Positions 4,166 to 61,714 of a DNA stretch of 64,000 nt are shown here, piece after piece. Below the pieces are notes generated by a model. That model saw only the letters and a list, made by a program, of their open reading frames with translations, ran no database searches and was not told the DNA's origin. This DNA is from Sorex araneus (lineage: Eukaryota; Chordata; Mammalia; Eulipotyphla; Soricidae). The translations under genes and the position numbers were made by a program. Numbering within the stretch: the first letter of the stretch is position 1; every line of letters starts with the position of its first letter. Location: positions 157,801,219-157,865,218 of the forward strand of contig NC_073306.1 of NCBI RefSeq assembly GCF_027595985.1, read 5' to 3'.

Positions 4166-4642
4166 CAAAGAAAGTTCTTAAATTAAAGCTCTGTCCAAAT
4201 ATTTATGGATTTTTTCCTCATGGATATGTCTGTGTCTTTTTGGAGGCCTCCGCAGGGCAGTATAGCAGAGTTCTGGATGCAGATGAAGCTGTCTCCTCCG
4301 TCTCGCTACTTACCTGTGCTAGGAACTCTGCCACTGATATTAGCTTCACCTGTTGAGAAACAGTCTGAGAGCATCTAGTTTTAAAGATATTTGCTTTCAT
4401 ATTTTTCTCTATTTCTTCTTCTTCATGGGAAGTGTTGCTGAAATGGGCCACATCTTGTAGTATTGAGGGACTACTCTGGGCTCTGTGCTGGTGTGGGGGG
4501 GCACTCCAGATGCTGCTCAGTGAATCTTTACTTCCACATGTAAAACATGTCCCTGATCCTCTTGATCGTCTTTCAGACTCCTTTTGTTAAAAATAATACA
4601 TGGCTCTAGGGATAAAACTCTGGCCTCATGCATGCAATGTAA
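4166..4642. other. Unassigned, possibly decayed SINE pieces
   Basis: There is no gene. Segments near 4460-4535 and 4600-4640 (gggataaaactctggcctcatgcatgc) vaguely resemble an antisense SINE, but they are too decayed to call firmly. Confidence 0.3.
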
Positions 4643-5650
4643 GTCTTCCGCCTTCCTCCCTCCCTCCCTCCCACCCTCCCTCTCTCCCTCCTTTCCTTCC
4701 TCCCTTTCTACCTCCCTCCCTCCCTCCCTCCTTTCCTTCCTCCCTTTCTACCTCCCTCCCTCCCTCCCTCCCTCCTTCCTTCCCTCCTTTCTTCCCTCCT
4801 TCCTTCCTTCCTTCCTTCCTTCCTTCCTTCCTTCCTTCCTTCCTTCCTTCCTTCCTTCCTTCCTTCCTTCCTTCCCTCCTTCCTTCCCTCCTTCCTTCCC
4901 TCCTTCCTTCCCTCCTTCCTTCCCTCCTTTCTTCCCTCCTTCCTTCCTTCCTTCCTTCCTTCCTTCCTTCCTTCCTTCCTTCCTTCCTTCCTTCCTTCCT
5001 TCCTTCCTTCCTTCCTTCCTTCCTCCCTTCCTTCCTCTCTCCCTCCCTCACTTCCTTTCTTCCTCCCTTCCTCCCTCCCTCCCTCACTTCCTTCCTTCCT
5101 TCCTTCCTTCCTTCCTTCCTTCCTTCCTTCCTTCCTTCCTTCCTTCCTTCCTTCCTTCCTTCCTTCCTTCCCTCCTTCCCTCCTTCCTTCCCTCCTTCCT
5201 TCCCTCCTTCCTTCCTTCCTTCCTTCCTTCCTTCCTTCCTTCCTTCCTTCCTTCCTTCCTTCCTTCCTTCCTTCCTTCCTTCCTTCCTTCCTTCCTTCCT
5301 TCCCTCCTTTCTTCCCTTCCTTCCTTCCTTCCTTCCTTCCTTCCTTCCTTCCTTCCTTCCTTCCTTCCTTCCTTCCTTCCTTCCTTCCTTCCTCCCTTCC
5401 TTCCTTCCTCTCTCCCTCCCTCACTCACTTCCTTCCTTCTTTCCTCCCTCCCTCACTTCCTTCCTTCCTTCCTTCCTTCCTTCCTTCCTTCCTTCCTTCC
5501 TTCCTTCCTTCCTTCCTTCCTTCCTTCCTTCCTTCCTTCCTTCCTCCCTCCCTCACTTCCTTCCTCCCTCCCTCACTCCCTTCCTTCCTTCCCTCCCTCC
5601 CTTCCTCTATTTTATCTCTCTCTTCCTTCCCTCCCTCCCTCTTATGCTTC
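4643..5650. repeat. About 1-kb (TTCC)n pyrimidine tract
   Basis: This is nearly pure pyrimidine on the + strand: mainly TTCC/CCTT units with blocks of TCCC and a few higher-order duplications containing 'cctcactt'. All six frames yield only Pro/Ser/Leu/Phe or Lys/Glu/Gly/Arg repeats, so the long open frames are artefacts. Such tracts can form triplexes and are unstable in length. The assembled length may not be exact. Confidence 0.97.
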
Positions 5651-6780
5651 CTTTCCTCCGTTTTAATTGTAAGATAATGTATTATGAATGAAATAATTAT
5701 TTGAAATACTTCAAAGAAGTTTGAAAATAATATTTTATATAAATTCTGTTGCATATCAATCTCTGACTCATACATGAGTTAAAGTATATATATGTATATG
5801 TGCAGGTGTATATTTATATGGTAATACATAAACATGAGTCTATAGGAGAATATACTTATAAGCTATATTAATCAAATTCTCTCTTAGTTGCAAATATTTG
5901 AGAGTCTTTCACAAGTTAGTGGGATTTTCAATATATCCTTGTATTTATTTATGGAAGGATTTTTCTTGTACATTTCAAAACTATTATTAGAGATACAAAG
6001 GTTGACAATTAACCATATTGCTTTAGTGACCTGTAACTTTTACAATTGGAAGACTGTTGCTCTGTGTCCCATTTAATGCATTTTATTTGTATTCATTTTT
6101 ACCTAACATTCATATTGCTCAATCTATTTGATTTTATTTCTCAGAACTTGCATGGCAAATATTTTGCCCTCTTCTACCTTTGTTTGAGTAGAACTATTTA
6201 ACCCATACATAATTTCATGATTATCATTAGAGTTTCAACTTTTCAGGATATTATTTATATTTTCTCATGTGTAAGAATCTTTCTTTGGTTTCCCCCCGCC
6301 TCCTCTGTCCCATGTCTCTTTGCTCTTTTTTTCTATCCAGCACAGTGTTTCCTAGTGGAGGTGCTATTAATATTTAATCTGGCTGTATCTTGGTTGTGTG
6401 ACTGTTTTGCACTCGGCAGGGCTTCATGATTGGCTCTGATGCCAAATATTAGTAACAGCCCCATTGCTGGGACAATGGAAAACTTGTAGACATATCCTCT
6501 TGTCCCTCCTTGAGCTGTTATGTCAGAAATAACTGCAGCCCAGTGCTCCTTAGCTTGGGACATAGATGCAGTTTCTCTTCATTGGTGGTTATCTTTGTTT
6601 TTCTAACTGAATTTTTCTCTTTTTATCTTAGTATGCACAACATGTGCATAGGTTAAGAACTCAGAGCTCTGAGAGTTATGGTACCTAACATTAAGTTACC
6701 GTGTCATTCATCTCTATGTTTTTCCCATAATCAACAACTTTGAATCTTTTTATGATACTTTTTAAAAAATGTTTCTCTTT
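5651..6780. other. Unassigned AT-rich sequence
   Basis: No gene is recognised. A small TA-rich stretch lies at 5785-5800. Confidence 0.4.
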
Positions 6781-14293: not shown

Positions 14294-14530
14294 TCGGGCT
14301 GGAGCGATAGCAGTGGTTGGGCGTTCACCTTTCACGCAGCCAACTCGATTCCTCCGCCCCTCTCGGAGAGCCGGCAAGCTACAGAGACTATCGAGCTCGC
14401 ACAGCAGAGCCTGGCTAGCTACCCGTGCATATTGGATATGCCAAAACAGTAACAATAAGTCTCTCAATGAGAACATTACTGGTGCCCCCTCGAACAAATC
14501 GATGAGCAACAGGATGACAGTGACAGTGAC
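14294..14530 (+). mobile_element. SINE2: tRNA head with RTE-like tail
   Basis: The SOR-like head (gggctggagcgatagcag) leads into a different body (tctcggagagccggcaagc … gatatgccaaaacagtaaca), then a tail 'gaacattactggtgccc … aaatcgatgagcaac' and a terminal repeat gacagtgacagtgac. The last ~60 bp match the 3' end of the RTE LINE at 19133. Unlike SOR there is no poly-A. Flanking duplication is short at best (tttc). Confidence 0.88.
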
Positions 14531-14547
14531 TTTCGTGCTTGTGTTTC

Positions 14548-19132: not shown

Positions 19133-19509
19133 TCACTTCTATCACTTGTTATTCTGTTGCTCATCGATTTTCTCGAGTGGGCACCAGTAACGTCTCCATT
19201 CGTCCCTGCCACGTGCTAGTGTAGCCCAATGGTGTCTGCTAGCTCCAGAAACACAAAGAGCATCAACGCATTAGTTCAGGGTCTTGGCGAAGAAGTCTGA
19301 CCAGCTCATAGGTGAGCAGCCATGCATTCTTTTGACATTCCATGGAATCCAGTAGGTAATGGCTCTAGTCCAGCGGTCGTCTCCAAATAGCATTATGTGT
19401 CCGGCCCATTTGAGTTTTGATGCCTTGGCAAATGAGGCAGTGTCCTTGATGCTCGATTGTTGACGGAGGTCGGAACTCCAGCTTCCTTCTCTCACTTGAG
19501 TGAAACGTC

Positions 19510-19555
<46 letters not shown>

Positions 19556-19562
19556 AGAGCCC
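19133..19562 (-). mobile_element. RTE-clade LINE fragment (3' end)
   Basis: The complement encodes a C-terminal RTE-type ORF segment: SSDLRQQSSIKDTASFAKAS, LKWAGHIM, DDRWTRAITYWIPWNVKR and SWSDFFAKTLN. A 3'UTR follows, ending in the same 'gagacgttactggtgccc … aaatcgatgagcaac' tail as SINE2 and then a short repeat. The 5' side merges into a (CT)n run at 19514-19553. An 11-bp duplication ggtgattcaat at 19122-19132 and 19563-19573 shows insertion into the L1 end. The conserved 'KWAGH…RW…' block is typical of RTE/BovB-like ORFs (family knowledge). Confidence 0.85.
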
Positions 19563-19819
19563 GGTGATTCAATAAAAGAAAAGGAAGGAAGGAAGGAAGG
19601 AAGGAAGGAAGGAAGGAAGGAAGGAAGGAAGGAAGGGAAGGAAGGGAAGGAAGGAAAGAGAGGAAAGGAAGGAAAGAAGGAAGGGAAGGAAGGAAAGAGA
19701 GGAAAGGAAGGAAAGAAAGAATTAAAGAAAGAGAGAAAGACAGAAAGAAAAAGAAAGAAAGAAGGAAGAAAGGAAGGAAGGAAGGAAGGAAGGAAGGAAA
19801 GAAGGAAGGAAGGAAGGAA

Positions 19820-19889
<70 letters not shown>

Positions 19890-20070
19890 AGGAAGGAAGG
19901 AAGGAAGGAAAGAAAGAAGGAAGGAAGGAAGAAAGAAAGAAAGAAGGAAAGAAAGAAAAAGAAAGAGAAGAAAGAAAGAAAGAAAGAAGGAAAGAGAAAG
20001 AAAGAGGGAAGGAAGGAAAGAAAGAAAAAGAAAGGGAAGAAAGGAAGAAAGAAAGAAAGGAAGAGAGAGA
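19563..20070. repeat. About 490-bp (GGAA/GAAA)n purine tract grown from an L1 A tail
   Basis: After the resumed L1 terminus 'ggtgattcaataaaag' the sequence becomes pure purine: GGAA, GAAA and GGGA units with an internal duplication around 19640-19720. Long open frames here are low-complexity artefacts. Confidence 0.95.
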
Positions 20071-20840
20071 CTTCACAAAAATGCATACTTTTAAGATCCT
20101 ACAACATAATTTTAAATGTAAAGACAAGATAAATAACATTTATATATATTTAAAATAAATAGGCAAAATATATTAGAAAGGTTTAGATTTATAGAAAAAC
20201 TGAGCAGAAAGAACTGTCTCATCCCTCCAGTTTCCCCTACAATGGACATCTTACAAGATGTGTGTTAGAACTTATTGATGTATTACTATTAAAGAAAATT
20301 CATTGTTGATGAGTGTTGACAATTTTATAAAGCAAACCAACCATTATAGTACCATTCAGAACAGTCTCACTGCTTTAATGCTCCACTTATTGCAAATGCT
20401 CTGCTCATTCACGCTTGTCTCTGTTCTTCCGAATTTTATAGTTTATTGTTGTTTGACCTTATCGTTTGGAGGGGACTGCTCTAGTACCAGGGTCATAAAA
20501 ACTAGGTTAAATAAACTGAGTGGTTTTAGCAGATATTTACCTATATTTTTCATTTTATTAGAACACACATGCAAGCAGTTTTTCTGCTCGTTGTTCTGGA
20601 GGCTGGAAACCCAAATCAGAGCACTGGGAAGGCCAGCGTGCCCTTGTCCAACGACAGATTTCTTTGTTCCCACACAGTAGAAGAGACTAGCGAACGTTGT
20701 GGCTTTCTCTCCTAAAGGATGTTTTTGATGCATCTGCTTTTATGACCTGAGCACCTCCCAAAGGGTCTCATCTAATACCATCCCCTTGCACATTAGGATT
20801 ATCTGAAGAGATGCAAACATTCAGATCATAGCAGAGAGTT
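20071..20840. other. Decayed old repeats, unassigned
   Basis: 20170-20310 ('tagaaaaactgagcagaaag…') and 20570-20835 ('tctggaggctggaaaccc … cattcagatcatagca') read like old interspersed repeats of mammalian type (L1- or LTR-derived). Families are not assigned. No gene is seen. Confidence 0.4.
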
Positions 20841-21542
20841 ACTTGTACTCTGATTTTCCCATTTTAGCTGCAAGTAGAGTTCGCGTCTCTATGGGTGCAC
20901 CTCACATTAATGCTCTCGTATACTGTTGGGTGGTTGGAAGAATGAGGGTTGCTTCTAGGATTTTACTCTTGCAGTATATGTATCACAAATATGTATATAC
21001 ATACATATGTAAAACACCTACTGAAAAAGTGCTGGTATGAATGAATGAAGGTAGGACACCAATATCATATTTAAAATGGCAGGATATACTGGACCGAGAT
21101 AGTCTTTGTCATATAACAGGAGACTCTTGCTCAAACGGAGAGGGTGAAGATAAGGTCTAAGAGTAAGTCATGACATCAGGGAGAGGGGGTGTTGGTAATG
21201 GCTAAGAGGAATGTTCACAGGGTAATGTTTTCAACTCTGACATGCATAGACTGGGCCCTGCCTCTGTTTACCAGCAGGGAGATATTCAGATAATGAACCA
21301 TGAAAGTCTGCTTTGCAGCAGCACTCAGCAATAATTTTTCATTTGCCACCAGTCAGCTTCAGGGATCAAGGAGAGCTAAACATATAACCCGCTCATGCAT
21401 GTTATTTTAAAGGCATATTTTAAAGTTATAAAACTGGTACATTGAGTTAATGAGGTATGTTCTTTTGGCGGCAAATATTTACATTCTACTTATGCTTCTC
21501 GATGTCAAGAGTGTAACCATTTCATTTTCTTCTTTTTCTCAG
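20841..21542. other. Upstream intronic sequence of GBA3
   Basis: Unique sequence with no repeat called. A pyrimidine-rich tract and AG acceptor (tctttttctcag) end at 21542. Confidence 0.5.
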
Positions 21543-21770
21543 GAGGCTGGGATGCAGACGGGAAAGGCCCGAGTGTCTGGGATACATTCACCCATCAGGG
21601 AGGAGAGAGAGTGTTCAAGAACCAGACTGGCGATGTAGCTTGTAGCAGCTACACTCTGTGGGAGGAAGATTTGAAATGTATCAAACAGCTTGGATTGACT
21701 CATTACCGCTTCTCTCTTTCCTGGTCACGTCTGTTACCTGATGGGACGACAGGTTTCATCAACCAGAAAG
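21543..21770 (+). CDS. GBA3: GBA3 internal exon (residues ~20-96), cytosolic beta-glucosidase
   Basis: This exon encodes part of a glycoside hydrolase family 1 (beta/alpha)8 barrel that cleaves beta-glucosides such as flavonoid and other xenobiotic glucosides in the cytosol. The 228 bp are open in the GBA3 frame: the first two bases complete a Gly codon, then [49 protein letters not shown] and [14 protein letters not shown] follow, nearly identical to my memory of human GBA3. The acceptor is tctttttctcag. The donor reads AAAG|GCAAGT, so the intron seems to start with GC rather than GT. This is the only choice that restores the family frame into the next exon (…NQKG|VDYYNK). No disruption is seen. 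Exon 1 (about 20 residues) was not found upstream and is probably outside the window. Confidence 0.95.
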
Positions 21771-23140
21771 GCAAGTGTTTCTTAAAATTAGAAGGTTGCA
21801 GCTTTAATTCAAGGTTATTGCTGCAGTCTGGCATAATTAATCCAGTATGCTATTCTGCAGTGTAGCTTTGAAATGGCAACTTTTTAGAGTGATTATAGGG
21901 TAATTTTTTTGAGATAGGCTTGCATTACTTTTCCTCGATGATAATGATATATATATCTATACATATGTATACACACATACACACATATATGCGTGTTATA
22001 TATATAATATACATATATTTATTTTCCCCCTTAATTGGATAGCTATGCTGGACAAGGAGAGGAGGTAATAGGGTAACGAGAAGGGGATTGAAGTAAGTGT
22101 TTCTAAAATGTAAGCTTTTACTTGAGAGTGAACCTAAAGGTGGGTTTTCAAAAATTATGTATTCAGCTATTTGCTGTTGAGGTGTACTGTGATGAGTAAT
22201 GAAGAGGCCTGCAAATCTTGAGAAGATTCTGAACATTTCCATTGGACCAGAGTTCCTAGAGCTCAGTAATTTGTAGCAAGGTCTCTGATTTGGAACTGGC
22301 CATAACCATCACTTATTATCAACAAGAGCATTGCTTGGTGCCTCAGTTTCCCCTCAGATAGAAAGGCTACTATAATACTTCCTTCTTCAGAGAGTTGTAG
22401 GAAGTTAGGTGAAATAACCTTTGCAAAGTGCTTTACAAATTGGCTGATCTGTCATAAAAACATTCAATAAACGCTAGCTAGCCTTATGATTATGCATTGC
22501 AATTAAAAAGGACTGCGGCCCTATTTGAATGCCTGCATTTATGAGGCATTTTACATGCATATTTTTTCTAACCCCCACAATCAATGAGGGAGGTATAATT
22601 ATCACATTTTGCAGACATGCTTATTCATACCCAGATGTTTGGTAGATGGAAGGTGTGGCATTTAAGCCCAAGACCTGGCTGGCCCTTCCAAACACAAGGT
22701 CACGTGGTTCCTGAGTCCTATTTTGATAAACACAATTGTGCCCACTCATGACTCCCTGCAGCAGCACCTCCCACCCCCACTCTTCTTCAAGGCACTGGAC
22801 AGGCTTGGAAAGGACCAGTAAAACTTGTAAAAAGTACTGTTCTGTACAGGAAACGTATGGCCCCGGTGTTACAGTTCAGCGAGGTCTTTACAAAGAAGTT
22901 TGTTGCTATTGTGTCTTGGAAAAGACGTCACACACACTCATAGGTGAGGCCAGCGAAGAAACTAGGCACAATATTGAAGGAACCAGGAAGGCCCCATTGG
23001 CAAGACGAGCACTTATGCAAACCCGACAGCATCTACTCCATACTTTGGGTTTCCAGAGTCCTCATCAATTCTAGAAAATTCTTGAGATGTTTACCTGTTT
23101 GCTCACACAGGAAGAGCATCAGGGACTAATAAATCTTATG
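21771..23140 (+). other. GBA3 intron (first part), unique
   Basis: The intron between the two GBA3 exons spans 21771-34098, about 12.3 kb. This part holds TA-rich tracts near 21945-22020 and no recognised gene or confident repeat. Confidence 0.6.
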
Positions 23141-25288: not shown

Positions 25289-25893
25289 TGTAGGAATTTT
25301 CTTTTAAAAACAAACATTTATTTGTATTGTCATTGTTGTAGTGTGGACAGTTCAGTCTGAGGCCTCTGAATGTGGCAGTGCTAAGGGGCTGTGGCAGCCA
25401 GACCACGGGGACCACCCTGGAAGTGTGCAGGGGCACACCAGAACTCCATCCACCCACGCTCGGGCCTCTTGGGCCCTTCCTCACCCTCCTGTGCTGCGGA
25501 ATTCTTACCAGGCCCCACCGTACAACACACAGACTGTCTCCTTGGCCTTCTCATTCTTTTCTGCAAGTTCATAGAGTGTAATGAATTCTCCCAGGTCTAA
25601 CAACTAATACAAGTCAAACTTCATGGTGTCAAGGTGCCCTTCAGGCCACGAAGGGAAGGTGAAATGTCATGTTCAGTGTCATTTGCTCCCTCTGACTCGA
25701 GGCCTTCACTTTCCAGTCAGGAATCGCAGAGATCTCTGTGCACAGCACAAGGTGGAGATCATCGTGATCATCGTGTCTTTGTTGTGAAGCTAAGGAAGAA
25801 AGATGGGCCCAAGTATTGACTGAAATGCTTCCACAGACTAAAAAGCTGATTCCTGGATAGAGAGAAAATGATTAGAAAGTTTATGATGAGAGT

Positions 25894-26139
25894 GGACTGG
25901 AGTAATAGCACAGCAGGTATGGCGTTTGCTTTGCATGTGGTCGACCTGGGTTCAATTCCTCCATCTTTCTATGAGAGCCCGGCAAACTGCCAATAGTATC
26001 CTGCTCCCATGGCAGAACCTGGCAAGCTACCTGTGGCTATTTGATATGTCAAAAACAGTAACAAGTCTCACAATAGAGACGTTACTGGTGCCCACTCGAA
26101 CAAATCGATGACCAATGGGATGACAATGGCAGTGGCAGA
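25894..26139 (+). mobile_element. SINE2: tRNA head with RTE-like tail
   Basis: Head 'ggactggagtaatagcacagcagg', B-box 'gggttcaattcc', body with 'gagagcccggcaaactgcc' and 'gatatgtcaaaaacagtaac', tail 'gagacgttactggtgccc … aaatcgatgaccaatggg'. The terminal repeat is degenerate (tgacaatggcagtggcag). Confidence 0.9.
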
Positions 26140-26646: not shown

Positions 26647-27116
26647 AATTACCCACACCGAGCAGAGCTCCCGGCAGCCGAAGACCACCGGAACCTAGCT
26701 ACAGCCATGCCGGAGGCCCCTCTCCACGCGTTGGAACAGGCCTCATGCATGAAGGTACTGGCAGAGGAACCCAGGTGTGTGTAATCCCATCAATGGCCAA
26801 CATCCAGAGATATACTTAAAAGCAAGCTCTCAGAATCGATATCTTTAGCTTACTTCTCCCTCTGGGAGAAACTGGCAATCTTCTGAGAGTTTCCTGCCCA
26901 CATGGGACAGCCTTGCAAGCTTCCCATGGTGTATTCATATGCAAAATCCAGTAACAAGCTGGATCTCATTTCCCTGACTCTGAAGAGCCCCCAGTGCAAC
27001 ATTGTTAGGAGGGCCGAGTCGAGATAGACTTCTAAGATTTCAGGGAAAGGACGAAATGAGATGTTACTGAGTCCGTCCGAGAAATCGGTGATTACGGGAT
27101 TTCGTGATCGTGATCG
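26647..27116 (+). mobile_element. 470-bp RTE-tailed element with non-tRNA head
   Basis: The 12-bp duplication tgtgataggcat lies at 26635-26646 and 27117-27128. The first ~200 bp (GC-rich: accgagcagagctcccgg…) match neither SOR nor SINE2. Then comes a SINE2-like body (ctctgggagaaactggcaa … catatgcaaaatccagtaacaa). Next come about 100 extra bases, then a tail 'gagatgttactg … cgagaaatcggtgattacggg' homologous to the RTE/SINE2 tail, ending in tgatcg repeats. I do not recognise it as a named family. Confidence 0.75.
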
Positions 27117-27414
27117 TGTGATAGGCATGTGTAATTCTGCCCTGTTCACCCTCTCACCTAGTTCAACATTTTGTACGAAGGAATTTGGTAAGCATGTACT
27201 GAATAAAGTCAAATTAAATCAAAAACAATGATGAAAGTCACTCTGAATGTAGTAATGAGTGCTTATTGAGGAAGAAATGTGTATGCTCTCCACAAATTGT
27301 TCCTGCTTTTGTGGATTCAGTGCTTTGAGGCTGGGTACAAATTAGACAAAATAATAAATTTAGTTAGAAATGAGTTCAATCTAGGATTGTGTGACAATAA
27401 GAACCTGGGCTCTC

Positions 27415-32340: not shown

Positions 32341-32577
32341 CACTGTCACTGTCACTGTCATCCCTCCTGTTGCTCATAGATTTGCTCGAGTGGGCACCAG
32401 TAACATCTCCATTATGAGACTTGTTGTTACCATTTTTGGCATATAGAATACGCCATGGGTAGCTTGCCAGGCTCTGCCACGCAAGTGGGATACTCTCAGT
32501 AGCTTGCTGGGCTCTTCGAGAGGGATCTAACCCAGGTCAGCTGCGTGCAAGGCAAATGCCCTACCACTGTGCTATCA
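32341..32577 (-). mobile_element. SINE2, antisense
   Basis: It starts with the terminal repeat (cactgtcactgtcactgtc), then the reverse of the RTE-like tail (gctcgagtgggcaccagtaac), body and tRNA-like head. The flanks cagaagtgatat (32329-32340) and cagaagggatat (32578-32589) form a 12-bp duplication with one mismatch. Confidence 0.92.
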
Positions 32578-32740
32578 CAGAAGGGATATGGGGGATATTA
32601 TTGATGGTGGGAAATGTACACTGGAGAAGCGATGGGTGTTGAAATGTTGTATGACTGAAATCCAATCATGAAAGTTTTATAACCATGTCTCACAGTGGTT
32701 CAATAATAAATGAATTAAATAAAAATATAAAATAAAATAA

Positions 32741-33635: not shown

Positions 33636-34098
33636 CTACCCAATTTATTTGTTTACTCCAACTTTCTAAGAGGAAGTGTTTGCTACCTTTCTGGTATTGT
33701 TCCAGGATTTAGGAGATCTGGAGATGAAGCAGACAGACTAATCTGCTGTCACTGTACCTATGTTTCAGAAAGTTAAGGGGCACATAAAACATCCAAATGT
33801 ATAAAATAAATTTACTAAGTGTGGCAATAACACAAAGCAATGCCCTAGGAACTTATCAAAATAAGTCTTTGAGAATAAATATCTCCCATGATCGCATTGT
33901 CCCATCACACTTACTGTCTCTGATCAGCCAGGTTTTCTCAGACTTCTTCCTGTTGTCCTCTTCAGTCTTCAACTGATTATATGTAGAATGTAGTAGAAAC
34001 TTATAAAACATAAATTATGTAGGAATTTATCATGCCCCCCTTAAAATGTATTGCTAACATCCTAAGCATAACTACTCAAATTTTTTCCTCTCTCTTAG
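33636..34098 (+). other. End of GBA3 intron, acceptor site
   Basis: Unique sequence ending in a strong pyrimidine tract and AG (tttttcctctctcttag) at 34098. Confidence 0.6.
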
Positions 34099-34895
34099 GA
34101 GTTGACTATTACAACAAGATCATCGATGATTTGTTGGAAAATGGCATCAAGCCTATAGTGACACTCTTCCACTTTGATTTGCCTCAGGGTTTAGAAGACA
34201 AAGGCGGTTGGCTGTCAGAGACAATAGTTGAATCCTTTGACAAATATGCTCAGTTTTGCTTCCGTACATTTGGGGATCGAGTCAAGTTGTGGATCACCTT
34301 AAATGAGCCTAATCTGTTTGCCCTGATGGCATATGATCATGGCACATTTCCTCCTGGTGTGCCTCACCTAGGAACTGGGGGTTATCAGGCCGCTCACAAC
34401 TTGATTAAAGCTCATGCCAAATCCTGGCACAGCTATGATTCCTTATTCCGAAAAGAGCAGAAGGGTCTGGTGTCCCTGTCATTCTTCATTGGCTGGGTGG
34501 AACCAGCAGACCCCAACTCAGCATCTGACCAAGAAGCTGCTAGGAGAGTCATGGCTTTCCATCTAGATCTTTTTGCTAAACCCATATTTACTGATGGTGA
34601 TTATCCTGAAGGGGTCAAGTCCCAGATTGCCTCCATGAGTAAGAAGCAAGGCTACCCATCATCCAGGCTTCCGGAATTTACAGAGGAAGAGAAGAAGATG
34701 ATCAAAGGCACTGGTGATTTCTTTGCTGTGCAATATTATACGACTCGCTTAGTCAGATACAAGGAGAACAAGAAAGGAGAGCTGGGTGCTATCCACGATG
34801 CCGAGGCTGAAGTTTTGACAGACCCATCTTGGGTCAATTTGGACTGGGTCTATGTAGTGCCATGGGGAATACGTAAATTACTGAAGTATGTAAAG
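34099..34895 (+). CDS. GBA3: GBA3 large internal exon (residues ~96-361), catalytic acid/base
   Basis: This exon carries the core of the GH1 barrel. It opens with the last two bases of a split Gly codon, then [15 protein letters not shown]. In order it has HFDLPQ (substrate-pocket His/Phe), the acid/base motif TLNEP with the catalytic Glu codon at 34305-34307 (E165 by human numbering), [30 protein letters not shown] and [14 protein letters not shown]. The 797 bp are open, with no frameshift or stop. The acceptor is tctcttag and the donor is AAAG|GTAAAC. The 'NEP' form is the usual GH1 motif; I recall human GBA3 having NEA here. It joins the flanking exons in phase. The few codons read past 34895 are intron. 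Residue spacing agrees with the ~469-residue family length. Confidence 0.97.
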
Positions 34896-35619
34896 GTAAA
34901 CACAATTATTTTTATGTTCATGTACCTCAATGAAGGTGGGAAGAAAGGCATACGTATGCATGTATGTGATCCTAAATAAGGACACTTGTAGGCAGTATTA
35001 CAAGCAGTTGTTGGGAACAAAAAAAATTAGAATTTAAGTGGGTGAGGGTTTGCTAGCTCATAAGGGCTTCAAAATCTGTGATTAAAGTGGTGATTCATTA
35101 TTCAAGTCAGTCATGGTCTTAGAAGTAGATTGAATACATTTCGTTTTTTTTTTCAGGCTATGCTATGATTATGATTTTTAAAAAGGCATATCAAGGGTTG
35201 ACATAGCTGGGCTCTTTTGGGGGGTCCTTTGTTTTGCTGGATAACATGGAGGTAGCTGAAATTAAAATTGCAAGTGATTCATTTTTTAGATAGCCTCTAG
35301 TGGGGAAAGAATATAGCTGCTGGCCAAGGGGTTAAGGAGCAGTGACAATCAGCAGATGTTGATGGGAAAGAGATATTTCTGTCTTCTTATGATAATAAGA
35401 GTCATTTAACTGTTTTCATGGACATTTGCACAGCTTTGCTTTTCCATTGTTAGTCATGAAAGGTCAGTGCATGGAAAATTAAGTTAATGGGGTCAGTGCA
35501 ATTTGATGAAAACCAGTTTGGAGATTGGAACTTAGAGAAGATAGAAAGACACCTGATTTTATGAGGGATTTTTTTTGGGTATATTTGTTTGAAATAAAAC
35601 TTGTGCTCTCTTGTTCTAG
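34896..35619 (+). other. GBA3 intron of 724 bp
   Basis: Canonical GT donor (gtaaac) and AG acceptor (ttgttctag). No repeat is recognised inside. Confidence 0.85.
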
Positions 35620-37370: not shown

Positions 37371-37548
37371 AGAAGAAGAAAAAGTGTCCTCCATGAGGTA
37401 GGTCCTGGGGTGGAAAGAGAATCAGTGATCTGATGGAGGGAAATGGACATTGGCAAAGGGATTGGTGTTGAAACATTGTATACATGCAACTCAGCCATGA
37501 ATATAATTTTGTAATGTATGCTGATTAAATTAAAATAAATAAATACAA
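37371..37548 (+). mobile_element. L1 3' terminus, old
   Basis: Sense L1 3'UTR scrap (ggaaatggacattggcaaagggattggtgttgaaacattgtatac…; given in part) ending in an A-rich taaaataaataaa tail directly before a SINE2. Confidence 0.65.
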
Positions 37549-37790
37549 ATACTATCACTCCAGCACAGTGGGTAGGGCGTTTGCCTTGCACACAGCCAAC
37601 CTGGGTTTGATTCCTCTGTCTCTCTGGGAGTGCCTGGAAAGCTATGACCCCCACACGGCAGAGCCTGGCAAGCTACCTGCGGCATATTCGATATGCCAAA
37701 AACAGTAACAACAAGTCTCACAATGGAGACGTTACTGCTGCCCGCTCGAGCAAATCAATGAACAATGGGATGACAGTGCTGCAGTGCTAA
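37549..37790 (+). mobile_element. SINE2: tRNA head with RTE-like tail
   Basis: Slightly 5'-shortened head (atcactccagcacagtggg), B-box 'gggtttgattcc', body 'gatatgccaaaaacagtaac', tail 'gagacgttactgctgcccgc … aaatcaatgaacaatggg', terminal tgacagtgctgcagtgct. Confidence 0.92.
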
Positions 37791-38616: not shown

Positions 38617-38629
38617 CTGTGCTATGTTT

Positions 38630-38806
38630 TTTTTTTCTTTTTTTTGGGGGGGTCACACCCGGCGATGCACAGGGGTTACTCCTGACTTTGCACTCAGGAG
38701 TTACTCCTGACAGTGCTCAGGGGACCATATGGGATGCTGGGAATCAAACCTGGGTCAGCCCCATGCAAGGCAAATGCCCTACCTGCTGTGCTATCGCTCC
38801 AGCCCC
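38630..38806 (-). mobile_element. Full-length SOR-type SINE
   Basis: Antisense copy close to consensus (ggtcacacccggcgatgcac … gtgctatcgctccagcccc). A direct repeat ctgtgctatgttttttttt starts at 38617 and again at 38806, and is perfect apart from T-run length. Recent insertion. Confidence 0.93.
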
Positions 38807-38877: not shown

Positions 38878-39400
38878 GTGTTTCACTTGTCACTTGTATC
38901 ACTTATCTTCCCATTGATCTTCTATTTGCTCAAGCAGGCGTCAGTAATGTGTCCGTTTGTCCCTGTTGTGTGCTAGTGTAGCCCAATGATATGTGCTCGC
39001 TCCAGGAACAGGAAGAGTCTCAAACCAATTCAGGGTTTTGACAAAGAAGTCTGACCATCTCATTGGTGGGTGACCACGCGGTCTGTGGAATCCAGTCAGG
39101 TAACAGCTCTAGTCCAATGGTCGTCTCTGAATCACATTACATGTCCAGCCCATCTGATTTTTGATGTCTTGGCAAATGAAACAGTGTCCCTGATTCTTGA
39201 CTGTCAACAGAGGTCAGAACTCTGGGTTCCTTCTCTCACTTGAGTGAGATGTGATATTCCAAGCATAGCTCTTTCGATTCCTCTTTGGGATACCCGAATA
39301 ACCTTCTCATCCTGTTTGCATAGGGCCCCAGTCTCTGAGGCATACATTAGTGCAGGAAGAATGGTGGAATCGAAAAGATGTCCTTCATCCTCTTAACCAC
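38878..39400 (-). mobile_element. RTE-clade LINE fragment (3' end), second copy
   Basis: Collinear with the 19133-19562 element: the same 3' tail (reverse of '…gacgcctgcttgagcaaat…'), then ORF antisense encoding pieces like KIRWAGH-type and WIPQTA/SPTNEMVRLL segments. It extends about 150 bp further 5' (cctctttgggatacccgaat … gtctctgaggcatacattag). Stops and shifts are frequent. The terminal repeat is cacttgtcacttg. Boundaries are approximate. Confidence 0.8.
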
Positions 39401-41907
39401 TTCTTCGATGCTCTTGTTTATGTCTTTGATTTTGTGTTATGTATTTCATTTCTCTCATTGAGCTTTGTGGGCTTCTATGTGTTTTCCCCACTGGTTTTTT
39501 TGCTGTGCTGGGGTGAATTTTTTAAATTCACCCTCTGGGAAATGCTGAGGGATTAAGCTAGAGAATGCTCTCTGTCATATCTGCCCATGCTCACAGAATG
39601 ACAGGGAGAATAATTTTGAGCAGCACGTAATTTTTTTCAGTAGATTTGTCACATGACTTCTTATGTGGCTTGTACTTCAGGAGCTGTAATATGAATCCTT
39701 AATGTGACGGAGGTCATGTGGAAGCTGTTGGGACCCACCCAATAGGGATGGACACTGCTTCCTATTCTGGAATAGGCTCACTGATATTTGCCAGAGGCAG
39801 GCATCACCTAGTATGGTGGCACAACAAGCAGAAGGTCAGGAGAAATCCACTGGAATTTTATAAGCAAACAATGAACTGAAAAAAAATCCATGACATAACA
39901 TTAAAACATTAATTGTTCACAGATTCTTTGTGTTACTTTGTTTGGGCTCTTGAACAACATTCTCCAATGCTTTGGGGACCACGTGATGCTGGGAAATCTA
40001 ATTAATGTTCTCTGCATGTTCGGCATACATACGCCTCAAACCATATACTATATTTTCATTTCCCTCTTTACTGATTCTTCAGATGATTTAGAGTAACTAT
40101 AATTTGCACTTAATACTATATATATTTTAAAAGTAGTATTTCAAAGAATCTGCGTATTGACCAAGAGCCCACATACAATTATAACTATTTTGAACAGCAT
40201 ATGGTGATAACTATTTATGATGTATCATAGTGGACAACAGATTTTTAGTCTTTAGGGAAACTCAGTATATGATCTCTTTTCTTCCAAGAAATATCCACTT
40301 ACCCATATCCCCACACTCCAAATGCACAGTTTTCTAAGTAAAGTTACTTGGTGTAATTATAGCACATGACATAAGCTGAACTAATCCTATTTCTTTCTTG
40401 GTAATTAGACTTGGACCAATCAGTTTGCTTCTTAGTTTGGATTGGCAGAGGGTGTAACACTGTGGCCCTTTGGTTGCGAAGTTCTGCCATGAAACGTTAT
40501 GAATAGTGAGAAAGAGAGAGGCAGGGAAGGGGAGTCAAGAGTTTAGGATGGACTCAAACCCATTGGTTTTCTTGCTGTGCTGGGGTGAAGCAAAGCTTCC
40601 CACGGGCTTTTCCTCAGACCCAACTGCATGTTCTCCAGACACTTTTACTTTTACTTATAATTAAATGCTCATTCTGCTCAGCTTGATTCTCAACGACTTT
40701 CTATCACTTGGAAGAAAACCAACCTTAATTGATACCATCATGTGACTCTTCCCCTCCCCCACTCATTTTCAGAGCAGTGCTATGAGGTCATTGCTCATAT
40801 TTTACAGATGAGGAAAAGGAGTTTTCAAGGACTAAATTTGTTCATTTTACAAAGCAGCTGAGTGATATTTCCTGGAACAAGGCGGACTATGCATATCATT
40901 TTGGGGGCTACTATAGGTTTTGATAAGCTTAGTGAATCCAAGGATTTCTGATTCAGGGTGCTTGCTCTTCTACCATTCTGCAGAGCGACTTTCTCACCTG
41001 TGACACTCTGGACGGGTCTTGGCTTCTTTGGAAGTGCTTCACACTCTCTTTGCAAGAGCCAGCAGGGCAAGCGACCTTACACACGGCTAAGCTAGCCACA
41101 TCTCCGCTCTCATAAGAACGGAGCTGCATTTACTAACGGGTTTCTTGAGACTCCTCCAAGGTAGCACTGATGATTTTGATGGGTGAGAACTATCCTAGGA
41201 AGAAGCACCCTGGGAGCAATTTAAAACAACCAGCCCTGGGCAAGACGTTTGCGTTAAAGATCGCGGGTGTAAGCCTTCCAGCACGGGGGTGTCAGATGGG
41301 TGTGGGCACGGCAGTTCCCAGGAACACAGCCATTCCTACAACACACTCCAGGCACGCAGACAGGCACACAGCAGCGGCACCTGAGTTAGATCCGTGGCAT
41401 CCGCCTGGAATTCGTGCTGATCTCTTCAGGTCAAATCCCACAGCAATTAATTGAGCAGTAAAAAGAAAGCTAATGTTCCCGTTTCCTTTTGAGACTAGGA
41501 GAAAATAAGAGGCAGAATGTCATTTCAAGACAAAGAAAGAAATCAGCCAATGCCATTGAATCAGGGCACTGTTTCAGCAGCTTTAAGTAGGTGCTGTGCA
41601 CCGTTTATTTTTCCTGCCCGCCTGGGTTGCCTTTGTTCTTAGCATGACTGAGTTTTGCACATCAAATTGTGGTGCTCGCACACTTGGCTGCAGTGCTTGC
41701 CAGGGTGGAGTTTACATTTTAGTTGTGGATACTGTATAATGGTGTATGTGGGAGGGGTGGGGGGGGCTGCACTCATTCTTGACGAGGTGTTTGGGCATGC
41801 ACTGGTGTTAGTGCTCACCAGGTAACTGTGATGCTTAGGAGGGTGCACTTCTGGCTGCAGAGCCTATGCCTCTTTCCCTGATACGGGGGTCTCACACTTT
41901 TGTTGAA

Positions 41908-46406: not shown

Positions 46407-50752
<4,346 letters not shown>

Positions 50753-53234: not shown

Positions 53235-53524
53235 TGACTATCATTAAGAAAGCAAGAAATGACATTGACAGGATGTGGAGATAAGGAAATACTTGTGCAT
53301 TGTTGGTGGAATGTATTTCCATTATGGAAAAAGAATGGAGTTTCTTTAAGAGTTAAAAATGGAGGGGCCGGAGCGATAGCACAGCGGGTAGGGCGTTTGC
53401 CTTGCACGCGGCCGACCCGGGTTCGATCCCCGGCATCCCATATGGTCCCCCAAGCACTGCCAGGAGTAATTCTTGAGTGCAAAGCCAGGAGTAACCCCTG
53501 GGCATCGCTGGGTGTGACCCAAAA

Positions 53525-53560
<36 letters not shown>

Positions 53561-59814: not shown

Positions 59815-60035
59815 AGGTGGAGAGAGATGAGCGAGAGAGAGGGAGAAATAAGAGGAGGAAGGGAGGAGAGAGATATTGGAAGAGAGACAGAGACAGAGAA
59901 AGAATACGGGCTTTTACCGAGGGCATTGAGCCTAGAATTATATATCATATATGTATATATATGTACTCATATATATATAACTGTCATCCCATTACTCATT
60001 GATTTATATATATATATGTATATATCAGTTTAGAT
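59815..60035. repeat. (GA)-rich and (TA)n low-complexity cluster with a SINE2 scrap
   Basis: A GA-rich stretch lies at 59815-59905 and TA repeats at 59940-60025. A 25-bp antisense scrap (aactgtcatcccattactc) at about 59979-60003 matches the SINE2/RTE terminus. Confidence 0.7.
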
Positions 60036-60960: not shown

Positions 60961-61060
60961 ACAAATATTTGATATGCCAAAAACAGTAACAAGTCTCACA
61001 ATGGAGACATCACTGGTGCCCACTCAAGCAAATCGATGAGCAATTGGATGACAGTGATAT
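60961..61060 (+). mobile_element. SINE2 3' fragment (body end and RTE-like tail)
   Basis: Only the last ~100 bp are present: 'gatatgccaaaaacagtaac', 'gagacatcactggtgcccac', 'aaatcgatgagcaattgg', 'gatgacagtgat', running into a TA tract. 5' truncation of this kind is typical of LINE-mobilised copies. Confidence 0.88.
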
Positions 61061-61714
61061 ATATATAAATACAAAAATATACATATATAATACATGATAT
61101 ATGTATATATAAAGGAGAGAGAGCCTATATTGTTTAAGTGAAGACTACTTATATCACCTCTTTATAGATTGTTTCATGAATTTTACTAAGATGATGATAT
61201 GCTTCATATGTTCATTGCACAACATTAAGATTTTTATCATTTGTCCATACTGGTAGTGTAGCTTTAGTTCATTTTTTAAAAACAGCTTTGCAGTGCTTTA
61301 ATATGTAAGCATTTATCCATTTCCCTTCTTGGTGGATGTTCAGGGATTAAGTGATGGGTGTCTTTTCACTTCCACAAAAAGTGCTGTGCTGTATATCCAC
61401 AGTTCACAAAGTGTTTTATAGATACAAAGGAGTCCATAGAACAGCCCCAGTACGTGCACACACATGTCCACACTTTTAGAATGAGGCTCCCTTTCCCCAA
61501 AACGTTCCACTCTCTGGAATATGGTGACAAGGACTAATCTTAAGACTAAAAACTTTATGTCAAAGGCATCCTTTAGGGTTTTTCCACTAAAACTCTGCAT
61601 AATCATAAACAGCAGACATAATGGGATGGGATGGCGCACTGTGAAAATCAGCAGGACATAATGTAAGTGAATAGCGTGCTTACACAGGTTAGCAACTACA
61701 ATGAAAAGTGTGTG
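61061..61714. other. Unassigned, with TA tract at 61060-61112
   Basis: A possible antisense L1-like stretch lies at 61215-61340 ('gcagtgctttaatatgtaagc'). No gene is seen. Confidence 0.35.

Follow-up and report, generated by a model that had tools for sequence, protein, structure and literature searches.

A SINE of the common shrew with a SOR-like head and two pieces of an RTE-type LINE, probably mobilised by the LINE enzyme

Results

Repeats in the window

The window analysed here is a stretch of 64,000 nucleotides of the common shrew (Sorex araneus) genome (contig NC_073306.1, positions 157,801,219 to 157,865,218). A sequence-only reading had placed in it five copies of a short element with a tRNA-like head, SINE2. 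All five are present as placed and four carry the head; the copy at 60961 is 5′-truncated and headless. The repeats that bear on SINE2 are the following.

14294..14534, plus strand: SINE2 copy of the young subfamily A; 224/235 aligned nt identical to the 27-copy A consensus
25892..26139, plus strand: SINE2 copy, nearer to subfamily B (200/241)
32341..32582, minus strand: SINE2 copy of subfamily B (215/228)
37545..37790, plus strand: SINE2 copy, nearer to subfamily B (191/217); head without its first 13 nt
60961..61062, plus strand: SINE2 copy, 5′-truncated and headless, covering consensus positions ~143–240 only
19133..19515, minus strand: 3′ end of an RTE-type LINE (C-terminal ORF and tail); 89% identical to a 29-copy 3′ consensus over 375 nt
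~38885..39415, minus strand: second RTE-type LINE 3′ end; 83% identity with the 3′ consensus in an alignment of 401 columns
38625..38806, minus strand: SOR copy with an A-rich tail
53364..53546, plus strand: SOR copy, query for the SOR control set; head as in SINE2, another body, poly-A and a 16-nt duplication
26851..27124, plus strand: separate young family with LINE-like nt 210–401 and an RTE-like 3′ tail with (CGTGAT)n; reaches upstream of 26851

The copy at 14294 is built from a head (to ~14350), a part matching LINE nt 204–314 (14351–14458), a part matching the LINE 3′ end (14473–14523) and then (ACAGTG)n, as located by blastn against consensuses of the two LINE ends. In the copy at 25892, the LINE 5′ and 3′ parts lie at 25973–26064 and 26072–26126, and the copy at 60961 starts inside the LINE-derived middle. 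The copy at 32341 (minus strand) has a 12-nt duplication with one mismatch. The other four copies are 76–84% identical to that at 14294 over the blastn-aligned parts. By eye, poly-A ends none of the five, as the sequence-only reading had stated. The SOR elements are presumably copies of Sor, the name given to them in that reading.

Two oddities of the SINE2 copies were seen. At 37545–37565 (plus strand), TATCACTCC stands in place of the first 13 nucleotides of the head and reads, by eye, as the head's GGAGTGATA in reverse complement; 5′ snap-back on insertion is a possible origin of this inverted scrap. A 26-nt piece of the SINE2/LINE tail alone lies inside a (TA)n stretch at 59980–60005 (minus strand, E = 0.005) and is possibly an extreme 5′ truncation.

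The family at 26851–27124 had been considered as an old SINE2 copy, which was ruled out by a genome search that revealed it as a separate young family. All 40 listed matches, itself included, are 94–100% identical, which suggests recent activity of an RTE-type enzyme, and the family (L111–L120) contains a length-variable spot.

SINE2 and the LINE share a 3′ tail

The ~60-bp tail that SINE2 had been said to share with the LINE is common to both far beyond chance. The best match between them in the window covers 44/47 nt (93.6%, E = 7e-15, blastn). The Smith-Waterman score of the tail is 87 for the LINE at 19.1–19.5 kb, where 2000 dinucleotide shuffles reached no more than 31, and 50 for the second LINE fragment against a shuffle maximum of 34. 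The homology begins sharply at AATGGAGACG: in an ungapped comparison of the window SINE2 consensus with the 19-kb LINE, 41/44 positions are identical downstream of this motif and 13/60 upstream. The tail does end the LINE that had been placed at 19133–19562, with the corrections that this LINE lies on the minus strand and that its sequence stops near 19515, beyond which a (GA)n run extends to 19562. The second LINE 3′ end had been overlooked; the ORF of another LINE copy reaches 39415 in it (tblastn).

The LINE partner

Copies were collected from the host genome assembly (2,405,902,106 bases, 65 contigs). They are throughout the ranked best matches to a query and no random sample, and the older SINE2 copies of the window are not fully represented among them. 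Consensuses of the two LINE ends were derived from 29 of the 39 other matches listed for the 3′ end and 29 of the 39 other matches listed for the 5′ end. The 3′ consensus is a single open frame; its translation ends in ...HWATLARDRDEWRRYWRPLEQIDEQRDDK*, and a (TACAAGTGA)-type repeat begins directly after the stop codon. The tail shared with SINE2 accordingly consists of the last ~19 codons and the start of the repeat. The LINE 3′ end that SINE2 had been said to borrow is thus open reading frame and not UTR. Individual 3′ copies are 6.8–10.5% off the consensus.

The 5′ start of the LINE is definite. Column agreement rises from 0.39–0.47 in the flank to at least 0.81 in the element, and 34 of the 39 other listed matches begin at query nt 8–14. 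No stop codon interrupts the first 432 nt, upstream of MTVCTF, when they are read in the frame of the endonuclease region; any fully open frame over this 5′ stretch was found in 0.65% of dinucleotide shuffles. Part of the stretch could be a leader in practice. The open frames at the 3′ and 5′ ends together support a coding nature for both LINE pieces described below. Differences between the two window LINE copies fall on the three codon positions without bias (27, 23 and 29) and are neutral on coding.

Two single LINE copies scored above the Pfam cut-off of 29.6 bits for RVT_1 (30.9 and 51.6 bits), and R2 and LINE-1 proteins are among the solved structures that the reverse transcriptase frame matches. 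Of two LINE 5′ reading frames, one gave Exo_endo_phos at 13.9 bits, short of the 24.5-bit cut-off, and the other did not give it; the C-terminus gave no useful Pfam match. The length was estimated at ~3.26 kb on C3, where the 5′ and 3′ matches were treated as belonging to a single copy. This architecture, ~3.2 kb with a very short 3′ UTR and a simple repeat, fits the RTE clade, and the C-terminal motifs look RTE-type. On both counts, the LINE appears to belong to the RTE clade.

Composition and abundance of SINE2

Searches with the young window copy and with the 32-kb copy each listed 40 other places; 27 of the former served for the consensus of subfamily A and 14 of the latter for that of the older subfamily B. 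On average, copies diverge from the consensus of their subfamily by 4.5% (2.4–6.6) in A and by 8.0% (4.9–11.0) in B. SINE2 is ~246 nt long and is a short dispersed multicopy element within the 100–500 bp range of tRNA-derived SINEs. It is composed as follows (B numbering).

nt 1–64/66: head, 60/66 identical to SOR
nt 65–175: LINE nt 204–314, 102/111 identical
nt 176–182: 7-nt junction
nt 183–240: LINE 3′ end, 56/58 identical, with (ACAGTG)n after it

Subfamily A matches the two LINE pieces at 102/110 and 56/58 positions, and its head is more changed (58/65 to a young SOR copy). Local alignment scores are 175–177 for LINE nt 204–314 and 96–101 for the LINE 3′ end, against shuffle maxima of 28–33 in 1000. 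Consistently, near-full-length LINE copies carry the middle of SINE2 near their 5′ end. The sequence-only reading had described SINE2 as an RTE tail behind a SOR-like head and had proposed an alignment of consensus tails as a check. Head and tail both hold at the identities given, and the description was incomplete: the ~110-nt body is also LINE, so that SINE2 is a SOR head followed by two RTE pieces. What SINE2 and SOR have in common is limited to the first ~66 nt; the body and A-rich tail of SOR were not found in SINE2.

A B-type pattern covering the end of the head, the middle and the junction was matched exactly 9,115 times genome-wide, and a reversed control not once. This count necessarily falls short of the true number of SINE2 copies, because an exact match to 33 fixed bases is rare among older ones; a crude extrapolation from the five in the 64-kb window gives roughly 190,000 for the genome.

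The head of the copy at 32341 (minus strand) matches the tRNA model RF00005 at 31.3 bits (cut-off 29) and is the only tRNA match in the window at the Rfam gathering score. No tRNA match reaching E = 5 was obtained for the other three headed window copies, and one SOR head scored 25.8 bits, below the cut-off. Judging from the tRNA match, the SINE2 head may supply a pol III promoter. Alternatively, SINE2 could be a non-autonomous LINE, a short RTE with an internal deletion, and its tRNA-like 5′ end would then not work as a pol III promoter. Beyond nt ~66 all of SINE2 is indeed LINE except for 7 nt, non-autonomous elements with a '5′-end of RTE' head are on record (MAR4, RTESINE1, Bov-A2 and RTE1-N1_LA; PMC3747384, Table 1), and the sister family at 26851–27124 has no SOR head in the stretch seen. 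We nevertheless consider this improbable: the head is retained, nearly identical to that of SOR, in both subfamilies, the tRNA model recognises one SINE2 head and, below the cut-off, one SOR head, and neither consensus contains an internal TTTT. The tRNA-headed SINE is the reading retained below.

Insertion marks differ between SINE2 and SOR

Target-site duplications were identified with one caller across the SINE2-A, SINE2-B and SOR sets, a duplication being a score of at least 8 (95% and 99% of the null at 7 and 10 in the LINE set). In subfamily A, 23/27 copies have a duplication, with a median of 11 nt (8–16). The cut is at T|A in 16/23, and TTT occurs at −15 to −6 in 10/23 compared with 186/1710 in the background (p = 7e-5). 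Poly-A directly before the second repeat is found in 0/27. Subfamily B gave duplications in 7/14 copies (median 12 nt), with T|A in 3/7, TTT in 3/7 and poly-A in 0/14.

The SOR control set comprised 16 of the 39 other listed matches, all on the plus strand, with one plus-strand match left out. All 16 have a duplication, with a median of 18 nt (14–24); lengths are upper estimates in those copies, L131 most of all, in which the called repeat is largely A. TTT is present upstream in 2/16 and T|A in 5/16. Poly-A is found in 14/16 SOR copies versus none of the 27 of SINE2-A (Fisher p = 1.5e-9), and the duplication starts A-rich in 13/16 versus 1/23 (p = 9e-7). This comparison had been proposed by the sequence-only reading, and it separates the two elements: no poly-A and short duplications at T|A in SINE2, poly-A and long A-rich duplications in SOR. 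The window alone gives no significant contrast (score of at least 13 in 0/5 SINE2 versus 5/10 SOR copies, p = 0.10), and by eye the two window SINE2 duplications have no T-run upstream.

For the LINE itself, 23 of the 29 copies were used; the other six run up to, or almost up to, the limit of the retrieved sequence and were left out. Only 8/23 have a duplication score of at least 8. Among these eight, T is at −1 in 6 and A at +1 in 6, and T is at −11, −10 and −9 in 6, 5 and 5. Enrichment of T|A and of upstream T is seen in SINE2 and, on the 8 usable copies of 23, in the LINE, and the two may share these marks. RTE-clade LINEs and SINEs are described as having a T-run about ten nucleotides upstream of a T|A cut (PMC13295347). 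These marks, unlike those of SOR, support the earlier proposal that an RTE enzyme moves SINE2.

It is very unlikely that SINE2 is moved by L1 like SOR, with an RTE sequence that plays no part and only records how SINE2 arose. Such a view draws on the head that SINE2 shares with SOR and on L1-like fragments, which seem common in the window from ORFs recognised by eye; two L1-like ORFs that were tried matched no Pfam family. The contrasts in poly-A and in A-rich duplication starts strongly disfavour it. Least likely of all is the reverse direction, in which the LINE took its 3′ end or nt 204–314 from a SINE: identity alone has no direction, but both pieces are in frame within one LINE ORF and lie ~3 kb apart there with LINE sequence on both sides, while in SINE2 they are joined. 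The marks thus fit best with SINE2 as a SINE served by the RTE-type LINE. SOR carries the same head together with poly-A and L1-type marks, so that one head would be served by two LINE machines; L1 as the enzyme source of SOR is suggested by the type of its tail and target sites.

Probable relics of a founder stage

A pattern joining the end of the head to LINE sequence beyond nt 314 has two exact matches in the genome, compared with 9,115 for the SINE2 pattern of like length. Both (L137 and L138) consist of the SOR/SINE2 head, LINE sequence from nt 204 to 379 or 393, and then LINE 3′ sequence. L137 retains the LINE 3′ end nearly whole (3′ consensus 332–400); in L138 just 33 nt of it align (324–356), with a damaged stretch after them. 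Both close with a GTGATACAGG-like repeat that is, by eye, nearer to that of the LINE than to that of SINE2. They share the head/LINE joint of SINE2 and do not have its internal deletion (~82–88 nt), and they look like a founder stage of SINE2. With two relics in hand, fusion, then deletion, then a change of repeat would be the simplest order of events.

A hairpin formed by the two LINE pieces

SINE2 contains a hairpin with one arm in each LINE piece, CAGTAAC...GTCTCTC pairing with GAGAGAC...GTTACTG. The internal deletion brings CAGTAAC and GTTACTG close together. The region folds to −16.6 kcal/mol in subfamily A and −13.5 kcal/mol in the window consensus; 0/1000 and 3/1000 shuffles, respectively, folded as low. 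Subfamily A has GTCTCTC/GAGAGAC where B has GTCTC/GAGAC, a two-sided change that keeps the pairing and the single coordinated subfamily change in favour of selection on the hairpin. Four decayed single copies folded unevenly (z from −2.87 to −0.48), and the 7-nt match alone is no more than chance would give: the 5′ region and the 3′ end have two 7-mer complements, about the random expectation. The hairpin may play a part in recognition by the enzyme. A panhandle of the LINE's own 5′ and 3′ ends was also considered and rejected: for three choices of 5′ stretch, 247, 791 and 360 of 1000 shuffles had a duplex energy as low.

Discussion

The composition and the insertion marks together make it highly probable that SINE2 combines a tRNA-derived head, common to it and SOR, with two pieces of an RTE-type LINE and lives as a parasite of that LINE, using its enzyme for mobilisation. 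In the proposed path, the promoter head of SOR, or of a head donor common to both, would have been joined, directly behind its box B, to a LINE copy with an internal deletion, of which nt ~204–390 and the last ~70 nt remained; a later internal deletion of ~82–88 nt would have given the present ~246-nt SINE2. The LINE-derived 3′ end, which is ORF sequence in the LINE, is likely the part recognised by the LINE reverse transcriptase. The LINE enzyme would cut the target at T|A roughly ten nucleotides downstream of a T-run and reverse transcription would start in the 3′ repeat, leaving duplications of ~11 nt; the marks are observed, and the enzyme is deduced from them.

SINEs of this kind are already known from the AviRTE SINEs, Bov-tA and Ped-2. 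Mammalian SINE/RTE pairs have been tabulated, several with a '5′-end of RTE' (PMC3747384, Table 1). Ped-2 of the springhare likewise has a head from another host SINE and a tail from an RTE-clade LINE (promoter 'tRNA (ID SINE)', LINE tail BovB_Pca; PMC3747384, Table 1), and differs from SINE2 in its head and its LINE. Bov-tA and Bov-A2, with ruminant BovB, similarly combine a tRNA head with an RTE-clade 3′ end (PMC3747384, Table 1, where Bov-A2 is listed with '5′-end of BovB'); their head is from tRNA-Glu and their LINE is another one. The AviRTE SINEs of birds and nematodes (ManaSINE1, GymnSINE) resemble SINE2 in having a promoter head and a bipartite 5′/3′ tail from one RTE, and AviRTE was horizontally transferred between animals and nematodes (PMC4844689). 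They differ in that their pieces are described as 5′ and 3′ UTR whereas both pieces of SINE2 lie in the open reading frame, and in that their host is a bird and not a mammal, with tRNA-Glu or 5S heads among others (PMC4844689). Sor has been called a shrew T- SINE (PMC8466645); it is alike to SINE2 in the head and differs in body, tail, poly-A and the 14–24 nt A-rich duplications.

RTE1_Sar of the common shrew is the probable identity of the LINE, proposed from likeness of description, both being abundant shrew RTEs. RTE1_Sar is reported to be highly abundant in the common shrew, to be absent from reads of hedgehog, solenodon and star-nosed mole, and to have been horizontally transferred, most likely from strongylid nematodes; the authors call the direction uncertain (PMC6542046). 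Among the literature searched, RTE1_Sar appears otherwise in one article, which cites the first. PMC6542046 mentions no SINE or tail, and the words 'shrew' and 'Sorex' are absent from the main text of PMC3747384. A literature search, of a kind that misses most subscription papers, revealed no published shrew SINE/RTE pair, and neither sequence strings nor 'tRNA-RTE' with Sorex gave a match. It is quite possible that SINE2 has an entry under another name in Repbase, Dfam or SINEBase. Pattern and protein searches of viral contigs gave nothing useful, and a pattern search of other genome contigs gave two matches, both in bacterial MAG contigs.

The features that set SINE2 apart are that its two LINE pieces lie in an open frame and that the LINE may be of nematode origin. 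We lean, by a small step, towards a joint reading in which SINE2, after its head, is a mammalian SINE made from two protein-coding pieces of a nematode-derived LINE, with the RNA signal in the coding end of the LINE, a hairpin of its own that the LINE does not have, and a path from the relics through the deletion to subfamilies B and A. RTE proteins would be under a specific and testable constraint if the recognised 3′ end lies inside the ORF. Should the LINE be RTE1_Sar, then a retrotransposon that reached the shrew from a worm parasite would have seeded a second, very large repeat family there, which would widen the view of what one horizontal transfer does to a mammalian genome.

SOR and SINE2 would represent a clear case of one promoter head with two mobilising enzymes in one genome, and they can therefore serve as mutual controls for the effect of the tail on insertion. 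With founder relics and two subfamilies of different age, the birth of the SINE can be traced stepwise.

Other features of the window

Outside the repeats, pieces of glycosyl hydrolase family 1 are found at 21446–21862 and 34023–34976 (both plus strand), the latter with cytosolic beta-glucosidase as its best match among solved structures; they probably belong to a GBA3-like host gene, as exons, or to a pseudogene. Long AAGG-type purine/pyrimidine tracts at 4566–5688 and 19500–20155 produce spurious long ORFs on both strands. At 47375–50110 (plus strand) lies an intronless and nearly open copy of a ubiquitin-specific protease gene (best solved match USP15), with DUSP, ubiquitin-like and UCH domains across two abutting frames, which looks like a processed retrocopy.
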